From: Euzebya sp.
GTDB taxonomy: Bacteria; Actinomycetota; Nitriliruptoria; Euzebyales; Euzebyaceae
Assembly (NCBI RefSeq): GCF_964222135.1
Contig: NZ_CAXQBR010000022.1
Span: 1 to 64,000 of the forward strand
Reading direction: 5' to 3'
Length of the DNA: 64,000 nucleotides
The position numbers and the translations under genes are program-made. Of this stretch, positions 12,130 to 44,114 are shown one piece after another. The notes beneath the pieces were generated by a model. The model saw only the letters and a list, made by a program, of their open reading frames with translations, was not told the origin of the DNA and ran no database searches. Position 1 is the stretch's first letter. Each line of letters begins with the position of its first letter.

Positions 12130-12240
12130 CCAGGCCTCCGCGAGGGTCCGTCCGTCGGGCTTGCGCGCCGGTCGGCGATGGCGGAGGGTGTCGCGCGACA
12201 GGCTCGCCGGACGAGGCGGACCCGACGACGAGGAGCCACG

Positions 12241-13604
12241 GTGCCCGAGACCCCGACCAAGATCCTGCTCGACGAGTCGGAGATCCCCCGGCGCTGGTAC
12301 AACGTCATCCCGGACCTGCCCGCCCCGCCGCCCCCGCCCCTCCACCCGGGGACGCACGAGCCGATCGGGCCGGACGACCTGGCGCCGCTGTTCCCGATGG
12401 AGCTGATCGGCCAGGAGGTCTCGACCGAGCGGTTCATCGACATCCCCGACGAGGTCCGGGACGTCTACGGCCTGTGGCGGCCGACGCCGCTGTACCGGGC
12501 CCACCGCCTGGAGGCGGCGCTGGGGACCCCGGCCCGGATCTACTACAAGTACGAGGGCACCTCGCCGGCGGGGTCGCACAAGCCGAACACGGCGGTGCCC
12601 CAGGCGTACTACAACGCGAAGGCCGGTGTGAAGCGGCTGACGACGGAGACCGGCGCCGGCCAGTGGGGGAGCGCGCTGAGCTTCGCCTGCGCCCAGTTCG
12701 GCCTGGACCTCGAGGTGTGGCAGGTCGCCGCCAGCTTCACCCAGAAGCCCTACCGCGCCTCGATGATCCGGACCTGGGGTGCGACGATCCACTCCTCGCC
12801 GTCCGAGCTGACCGCCGCCGGCCGGGCGATCCTCGCCGAGCACCCGGACTCGCCGGGGTCGCTCGGCATCGCGATCTCCGAGGCCGTGGAGGTGGCCGCG
12901 CAGGACCCCGACACCAAGTACGCGCTCGGGAGCGTCCTCAACCACGTGCTGCTGCACCAGACCGTCATCGGGGAGGAGGCGCTCCTGCAGTTCGCGAAGG
13001 TGTCCGAGACCCCGGACGTCATCGTGGGCTGCACCGGCGGCGGGTCGAACTTCGGCGGCCTGTTCTTCCCGTTCCTGCGCGAGAAGCTGGCAGGTCGGAT
13101 GGACCCGCGGATCGTCGCGGTCGAGCCGCCTGTCCGTCGCTCACCAAGGGCGAGTACCGCTACGACTTCGGCGACACCGCCGGGATGACCCCGCTGGTCA
13201 AGATGCACACGCTGGGCCACGACTTCGTGCCGGACCCGATCCACGCCGGCGGGCTGCGCTACCACGGCATGGCGCCGCTGCTGAGCCACATGTACGAGCT
13301 CGGGCTGTTCGAGGCGACCGCCATCGGGCAGGTCGAGTGCTTCGAGCGCGCGGTCCAGTTCGCCCGGACCGAGGGCATCGTGCCGGCGCCCGAGCCGACC
13401 CACGCGATCGCCCAGACGGTGCGGGAGGCGCTGGCGTGCAAGGAGTCGGGGGAGGAGAAGGTCATCCTCACCGCCCTCTGCGGCCACGGCCACTTCGACA
13501 TGGCCGCCTACGACGCGTACTTCCGCGGCGAGCTCGTCGACTACGACTACCCCGAGGAGGCCGTCGCCGAGGCCATGGCCCGCGTCCCGGTTATCGCGGG
13601 GTAG
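12241..13604 (+). pseudogene. trpB: TrpB2-type tryptophan synthase beta chain, interrupted by a frameshift
   Basis: A pyridoxal-phosphate enzyme of the TrpB2 subfamily (indole + serine to tryptophan). The first frame, from GTG 12241 with an upstream GAGGAG, runs through the PLP lysine K114 in GSHKPNTA, the glutamate region [12 protein letters not shown] and the phosphate loop [10 protein letters not shown], then at about 13128 leaves the family sequence and stops at 13188. The next frame resumes at once with [17 protein letters not shown] and continues to 13604. Restoring four bases (one GCCG of a probable GCCGGCCG) would give an intact protein of about 455 residues, the normal length. Either a real inactivating mutation or a sequence error. 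Confidence 0.85.
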
Positions 13605-13627: not shown

Positions 13628-13758
13628 CGAACTCTCAGTGCACTGACCGGGGTCAGGACGGCCGTCGTGCGCCCCGCGCGGCGCCCTGACCTGCGGTTCT
13701 GCGACTCTCGGTGCACCACGCACCTCCCCCGGCCGTCCCTGACTGCACCGAGAGTTCG
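13628..13758 (+). repeat. 131-bp palindromic element, copy 1 (MITE-like)
   Basis: Both ends carry the inverted repeat CGAACTCTC[A/G]GTGCA (13628-13642 and, reversed, 13744-13758), followed inside by GTCAGG(G)ACGGCC on each arm. The left arm has the perfect 12-bp palindrome TCAGTGCACTGA (13635-13646) followed by a GACC/GGTC stem. A third copy of the motif, GACTCTCGGTGCACC, stands at 13703 and pairs with the right end to make a hairpin. A 129-bp copy in the opposite orientation is at 23807-23935. It has no coding capacity, and lies between the trpB2 stop and a truncated S66-peptidase remnant. Confidence 0.7.
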
Positions 13759-13793: not shown

Positions 13794-13862
13794 GGGGCGC
13801 TCAGGCGCGGTGACGCCGATGCGGTCACCGGGCTGGAGCGGAGCGGGGAACCGGAGGGACAC
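13794..13862 (-). pseudogene. N-terminal remnant of an S66-family LD-carboxypeptidase
   Basis: From a GTG at 13862 the minus strand reads about 23 residues, including LRFPAPLQPGDRIGVTAP, that match the start of MccF/LdcA-type (S66) peptidases, which open with a Pro-x-Leu-x-Pro-Gly-Asp-x-Ile-Gly-Val-x-Ala-Pro motif. After this the frame becomes low-complexity and runs into the palindromic element; the serine-containing GTSD and later active-site blocks are missing. It looks like the surviving head of a gene whose body has been lost. The short match makes this tentative. Confidence 0.4.
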
Positions 13863-23806: not shown

Positions 23807-23935
23807 GACTTTCGGTGCACCTAGCGCCGTTCACCTGGCGGTGCCGGTGCACCGAGGGTCAAGGCCGCGCCCCGCGCACACGCCCGTTGAGCGCTCGGAG
23901 ACCCGGCGCTGACCCGGGTCAGTGCACTGAGAGTC
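23807..23935 (-). repeat. 129-bp palindromic element, copy 2 (MITE-like)
   Basis: The reverse complement has the same layout as the element at 13628: an end motif ACTCTCAGTGCACTGAC with the perfect palindromes TCAGTGCACTGA (23919-23930) and CTGACCCGGGTCAG (23909-23922), a variable middle of about 45 bases, then GACCCTCGGTGCACC (23860-23846) paired with GGTGCACCGAAAGTC at the other end (23821-23807). Motif spacing (about 72-74 and 40-54 bases) and total length agree with copy 1, while the middle differs. It sits between the acyl-CoA dehydrogenase and the sugar transferase. Confidence 0.7.
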
Positions 23936-44057: not shown

Positions 44058-44114
44058 CCGAAGTTGGGCGCGATCGGGGCCTACCTCGCCGTAGGGCGAG
44101 GGAGGCCCCGATCG
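44058..44114. terminator. Hairpin terminator containing the REP-like repeat
   Basis: CGATCGGGGCCT-AC-CTCGCC, a GTAG loop, and GGCGAG-GG-AGGCCCCGATCG form a 20-bp stem with one two-base mismatch (44071-44114). It lies between the converging suf operon (end 44008) and the nitrate transporter (end 44130), so it can end both. The left side, 44059-44082, is identical over 24 bases to 11440-11463 inside the vWA gene. Confidence 0.75.

Follow-up and report, generated by a model that had tools for sequence, protein, structure and literature searches.

A palindromic element occurs twice in the 64,000-nucleotide stretch of Euzebya sp. DNA analyzed here (the window; 73% GC), with ends that are shared between the copies and a middle that differs, and it raises the question of what such an element is and what disperses it. 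A first-pass annotation, made from the letters alone, had proposed either a non-autonomous mobile element (MITE) or a structured RNA or regulatory unit. Analysis of the genome to which the window belongs (G000; 5.06 Mb in 111 contigs) and of related genomes showed that the element is paired with a nuclease gene. The reading we favor, with a probability of about 0.6, is that the element serves one nuclease, encoded elsewhere in the genome, as an array of several recognition sites, and that this nuclease spreads or maintains its arrays in a manner like that of REP/RAYT systems.

Two copies of a 13-mer array in the window

The element, designated the W family, is an array of three copies of the 13-mer ACTCTCRGTGCAC, two direct and one inverted, in a fixed geometry. 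Three 13-mers centered on GTGCAC had been noticed in each element, and these were found in both copies in the same order, as listed below.

13631..13755, plus strand: element copy 1, W family, 125 bp from first to last 13-mer, geometry 13-60-13-26-13
13631..13643, plus strand: copy 1, 13-mer site 1, ACTCTCAGTGCAC
13644..13655, plus strand: copy 1, palindrome TGACCGGGGTCA, immediately 3′ of site 1
13687..13693, plus strand: copy 1, linker motif TGACCTG, 10 bp 5′ of site 3
13704..13716, plus strand: copy 1, 13-mer site 3, ACTCTCGGTGCAC
13743..13755, minus strand: copy 1, 13-mer site 4, inverted, ACTCTCGGTGCAG on the minus strand
23808..23934, minus strand: element copy 2, 127 bp, site order as in copy 1
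23922..23934, minus strand: copy 2, 13-mer site 1, ACTCTCAGTGCAC
23910..23921, minus strand: copy 2, palindrome TGACCCGGGTCA after site 1
23848..23860, minus strand: copy 2, 13-mer site 3, ACCCTCGGTGCAC
23808..23820, plus strand: copy 2, 13-mer site 4, inverted to the other two, ACTTTCGGTGCAC

The gap between sites 3 and 4 of copy 1 is 26 bp. When the copies were properly aligned, the shared ends held together, and the middle was seen to vary in sequence at nearly constant length. Copy 1 matched a sequence model of the family with an E value of 1.6e-18 (copy 1 is itself among the model's sequences). All six matches to ACTCTCRGTGCA in the whole window, allowing up to 2 mismatches, fall within the two elements; the number of matches at 2 mismatches is at chance level, and it is their clustering, together with the exact count in the genome, that exceeds chance. 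An inverted repeat at 44071-44114, with 20-bp arms that are 95% complementary and stand 4 bp apart, is terminator-like, and no kinship between it and the element families was seen.

The genes beside copy 1 were also inspected. On its 5′ side lies a trpB-like gene (window 12178-13604, plus strand) that is split into two frames with a break near 13130. The stretch spanning the break is open in the orthologues of congeners G002 and G001, and the split may reflect a fault in the assembly or a pseudogene of recent origin. One further feature lies on the other side.

13794-13862, minus strand: candidate 23-codon gene start (VSLRFPAPLQPGDRIGVTAPE...)

The first-pass annotation had read it as a gene cut down to its first codons, and it may resemble the N terminus of LD-carboxypeptidases (S66). 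The 23-residue frame gave no significant PDB match (query too short), and the 69-amino-acid open reading frame that contains it gave no Pfam match. No intact version of the copy-1 site was found among congeners G001, G002, and G003. Because the DNA 3′ of the trpB-like gene differs in each of the three, the comparison is uninformative as an empty site; no clean empty site was found in comparing the copy-1 site, the one site compared between congeners.

The W family across the genome and in a congener

The family extends beyond the window. Exact matches to ACTYTCRGTGCA numbered 17 in G000 compared to none for the reversed pattern, and they define seven elements, of which five are additional to the two in the window (one each on contigs C30, C89, and C105 and two on C55). 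A search with the model built from the W copies returned the same seven in G000 and no other full-length copy, and the same type of search across the genus and class recovered no full-length copies beyond G000 and congener G002. In the latter, the 13-mer is slightly altered (consensus ACTCTCGGTACAC) and has 33 exact sites compared to 1 for the control. W-type sites were absent from G001 and G003, the other two of the three congeners compared. Scans of wider genomic and viral contig collections with the W pattern gave four and one scattered matches, respectively, which we judge to be about the chance level.

The copies in G002 display a four-site core, laid out as a site (>), 23 bp, an inverted site (<), 23 bp, a site (>), 25 bp, and an inverted site (<). 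Spacing is exactly 23/23/25 in 8 of 11 cores, though the spacers share little sequence; TGACCTG lies in the middle linker, ten bases ahead of the third site, and additional sites are piled outward in tandem. The W elements of G000 lack the second site, yet they retain the overall length and the position of TGACCTG. Exceptions to the free spacers in G000 are the palindrome after site 1, of the form TGAC-N4-GTCA in all seven copies, and, in 5 of 7 copies, a stretch of GTGAACGGCGYTAG that precedes site 4. Spacing looks to be under constraint, with spacer sequence mostly free.

Arms of the inverted repeats vary independently

One of the two original proposals was a structured RNA, to be recognized by compensatory changes in its stems; a terminator or attenuator element is a closely related possibility. 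Single strands of most copies fold better than most of their shuffles, and many copies follow convergent genes. Pairing of the arms, however, is no better than in shuffled controls. Across the 11 copies in G002, paired cells make up 86.4% of the total for the inverted arms and 86.8% for shuffled arms, and double changes number 1 compared to 2.2 expected. A larger sample came from 43 distinct palindromes of the distant genome G411 (described below), where 674 arm pairs were counted compared to 703 after shuffling, with all 2,000 of 2,000 shuffles higher. The element had no match in Rfam. As changes in the arms do not covary in either genome, a structured RNA or hairpin was rejected, and we consider any reading of this kind very unlikely. 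The arms instead behave as independent copies of a putative protein-binding site.

W arrays flank a gene for a nuclease with an AbiEi-type region

Comparison of the locus flanks in G000 and G002 revealed one common unit, a gene of about 1 kb between two arrays. The neighbors of this unit differ between the two genomes. In G000, the gene is located outside the window on contig C55 and its product is about 332 amino acids long; the G002 orthologue, P0001, has 332 amino acids and is 55% identical to it. Among the genus genomes compared, the W-type protein is limited to these two.

P0001 matched DUF559 (PF04480) with an E value of 4e-9 and 36.6 bits compared to a curated cut-off of 20.6, and 5 of 8 genus proteins match this domain at E values up to 1. 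Residues 18-180 of the nuclease matched the PADLOC AbiEi model (E 2.2e-13), as did 6 of the 8 genus proteins at E values up to 1; the Pfam AbiEi_4 score of P0001 was under its cut-off. A PDB profile search returned the endonuclease-like protein 3hrl (E 0.002) and, weakly, the mobile-intron nuclease 3r3p (E 0.71), which we take to be I-Bth0305I. Residues E210, D238, E249, H255, and D262 are invariant across the eight genus proteins and are candidate catalytic residues that would fit a Vsr-like active site. Domain searches gave no match to an HUH domain. From these profiles, the protein is predicted to carry an AbiEi-type winged-helix region and, at its C terminus, a DUF559 nuclease domain of the Vsr-like PD-(D/E)XK type.

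The neighbors of the gene on C55 and in G002 look, from their translations, like unrelated SDR, patatin-like, glycosyltransferase, and SCO6745-like genes, and no AbiEii toxin was recognized among them. Homologues of the nuclease were not detected on plasmids and phages by tblastn.

Other nucleases have arrays of their own

Arrays of other 13-mers lie on both sides of each of the three G000 paralogues, and likewise of the homologues in G001, G002 (contig C3), and G003. The pattern ACGRATCGACYMC, common to two of the G000 paralogue families, has 83 sites in G000 compared to 0 for the control. The G003 motif ACGGAWTCGCCTC occurs 28 times in G003 (control, 0), is absent from both G000 and G002, and occurs 4 times in G001, where similar sites lie nearby for 3 of the 4. 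Private dispersal was also observed in distant genomes. In G411, the homologue is flanked by TGTGAGCA-N25-TGCTCACA, with 81 occurrences in the genome (control, 0) and none in G000 or in a second distant genome, G039. The G039 homologue is flanked by CTTCCTGGGC-N3-AGCCCAGGAA, a pattern with 11 forward matches compared to 1 for the control, 5 of them adjoining the gene, and none in G000 or G411. Within the genus, every such nuclease comes with a 13-mer of its own and with arrays of fixed geometry, which suggests several parallel nuclease-array pairs per genome.

Homologues at five further loci (L110, L194, L201, L202, and L206) have flanking palindromes, as judged by eye and by a flank test, and at several DUF559 homologues in the phylum the flank test found no arrays. 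The flank test is weak in GC-rich DNA: among 156 control places examined in the window, at least 6 sites were counted at 53, and 10 at one. Because the test alone, with counts of 6-8, is weak, the case for pairing rests on how often each pattern is dispersed through a genome compared to its reversed control; these counts cover the G000 W family and two ACGRATCGACYMC families, the G002 W family, G003, G039, and G411.

Beside distant DUF559 genes, palindromes also form tandem series that repeat every 61-62 bp at L201, L202, L209, and L110 (genomes G034, G030, G039, and G050) and every 73 bp in G411 (L208). The arms of the G411 palindrome are asymmetric, one tending to CTTGRCC and the other varying, as if the element were oriented.

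The private pairing bears on the possibility that the arrays are passive targets, spread by an unseen recombinase, and that the nuclease gene homed into them as landing places in the manner of a homing endonuclease. The weak 3r3p match would agree with this, as would the finding of gene plus arrays between different neighbors in two species. Every tested nuclease, however, has its own array family, in genomes with that nuclease type, and a private family per nuclease makes spread by another enzyme hard to explain; solo-array loci that were examined also held no DUF559 or other nuclease remnants. The arrays could still be spread by something else and be merely bound by this protein, but we regard the homing scenario as rather improbable.

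Geometry, nesting, and genomic placement

Geometry is largely fixed within each G000 family: spacing is mostly 26/60 in the W and A families, 8/78 in S, and 19/95 in H, and about 125 bp is the typical length for W, A, and S. TGACCTG is present in 15 of 35 G000 elements, in the W, A, and S families, compared to 1.2 expected. On contig C38, an H-type element of about 194 bp sits within an A-type element. The outer pieces of the A spacer measure 22 and 41 bp, giving 63 bp where A elements have 60, and the nesting fits insertion with little or no duplication. Visual inspection of the flanks, for the seven W copies and for 31 G000 elements, revealed no target-site duplication.

These data also bear on the mobile-element half of the original proposal, which comes close: the solo arrays have a gene-bearing counterpart with the same arrays on its flanks, and one array is nested in another. 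In place of the envisaged parent transposon with CGAACTCTC ends, the partner of the arrays was an AbiEi-DUF559 nuclease gene and not a DDE transposon. An ordinary DDE-transposon MITE whose ends are 13-bp inverted repeats would account for the inverted 13-mers at both ends and for copies that are dispersed and intergenic. It would not lead one to expect internal sequences that mostly differ between copies while site spacing agrees, site numbers that change by tandem addition, flanks in which no target duplication is seen, or a unit bounded by this 13-mer that encodes a DUF559 protein, and we consider it highly improbable.

Solo arrays are intergenic, with 3 of 52 overlapping a gene call by more than 30%. 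Convergent genes lie on both sides of 23 of 47 scored sites compared to 2 of 16 window gaps of at least 100 bp; a heuristic gene caller was used, the 47 are the sites with both neighbors called, and the control sample is small. This placement is unlike that of operators and like that of REP sequences.

Placement and arrangement were weighed against a regulon, in which an AbiEi-like transcription factor would use the arrays as operators at many genes and the nuclease domain would have a side function. An AbiEi autoregulator does bind inverted repeats at similar spacing (PMC3985639), and fixed site geometry with free spacers resembles operators. Against this, arrays also lie 3′ of their own gene, a promoter is unexpected between convergent genes, outer sites grow in tandem, and one array lies inside another. 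We therefore view a regulon as unlikely.

Several additional observations concern placement. Among 31 G000 elements, the left flank is C-rich in 7 and the right flank is G-rich in 12, compared to 1% and 3% of random 40-mers; the G-rich right-flank tracts (GGGGAGGG) and C-rich left tracts could be a target preference or plain intergenic composition. At locus L255 (positions 2333-2453, G000 contig C62), an AraC-type regulator contains an A-motif array 5′ of its HTH domain, and its reading frame stays open across the array. Another array is located 965 bp from this one, with no DUF559 gene between the two, and no full-length homologue of the AraC-type gene was found in plasmids.

A working model for nuclease/array pairs

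Under the favored reading, in which a nuclease spreads or maintains its own arrays, the winged-helix region would bind each 13-mer, and two inverted 13-mers separated by about 25 bp would load a dimer; the inverted pairs observed have 23-27 bp between members. Several dimers might then assemble on the DNA into a nucleoprotein complex whose geometry is set. The nuclease domain would cut at or near the array, and through cutting and repair new intergenic locations would gain copies of the arrays and existing arrays would grow in tandem, while binding beside the gene would autoregulate the nuclease gene. The plan would otherwise be like that of REP/RAYT pairs, except that an unrelated enzyme would recognize duplex DNA. 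AbiEi of Streptococcus binds TGTTGCTTTTA-N27-TAAAAGCAACA, a pair of inverted 11-mers, at its own promoter (PMC3985639), and spread by cutting and repair has been proposed for REP/RAYT (PMC3686654). We infer such spread for the present arrays from three observations: nucleases are paired with private repeats, one element is nested in another, and outer sites grow in tandem.

If the model is true, these bacteria would hold a second pairing of this kind, built on an unrelated nuclease and a winged-helix reader. DUF559, a domain of unknown function, would gain a testable role, orphan repeat families in these bacteria would be explained, and nuclease/13-mer pairs would offer recognition specificity readable from sequence alone. 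A wider claim, to which we give even odds, is that actinobacterial genomes hold a distinct and widespread class of selfish repeats, in which AbiEi-DUF559 nucleases replicate private, duplex-recognized arrays, independent of REP/RAYT in origin.

Comparison with known systems

To our knowledge, REP/RAYT, which is HUH based, is the sole known system that ties dispersed bacterial palindromes to a nuclease gene they flank. A search by title and abstract found no paper linking DUF559 with repeats, which is weak evidence, as most subscription journals lay outside the search.

ERIC sequences are about 127 bp long, palindromic, and intergenic, and the element resembles them in these three respects. Their sequence is not known to be related, and the present arrays differ in having a rigid site order, free spacers, and a cognate nuclease gene.

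The abiE operon offers a likeness in the protein: AbiEi is of the same winged-helix family, and its inverted 11-mers, with a 27-bp gap, adjoin its own gene (PMC3985639). The proteins described here differ in their predicted C-terminal nuclease domain and in the lack of a recognizable AbiEii toxin among the translated neighbors, and their sites both flank the gene and are scattered genome-wide. The weak 3r3p match, the candidate E/D/H/D residues, and the long DNA target recall EDxHD homing endonucleases, such as I-Bth0305I (PMC3943268); unlike in those systems, no intron or intein was identified, and the recognition repeats occur in tens of dispersed copies as well as on either side of the gene.

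The closest likeness is to REP/REPIN sequences and RAYT (TnpA_REP) genes, together termed REPtrons (PMC3686654, PMC8266576). Both systems feature short, dispersed extragenic palindromes in many copies, the same repeats flanking a nuclease gene, and several classes that each have their own enzyme, with repeats abundant where the cognate gene is present. They differ in the enzyme, which in RAYT is an HUH Y1 tyrosine enzyme and here is a predicted AbiEi winged helix with a DUF559/Vsr-like nuclease, and in the DNA. The GTAG or GT(A/G)G tetranucleotide at the foot of the REP hairpin was not seen in aligned copies, arms are not kept complementary and give no sign of hairpin recognition, and the 13-mers of this genus are set in rigid multi-site arrays of about 125 bp. 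Overall, protein and DNA that are both unrelated to REP/RAYT, on an analogous plan and with a function we infer, point to the nuclease/array pairing as a previously undescribed counterpart of REP/RAYT.
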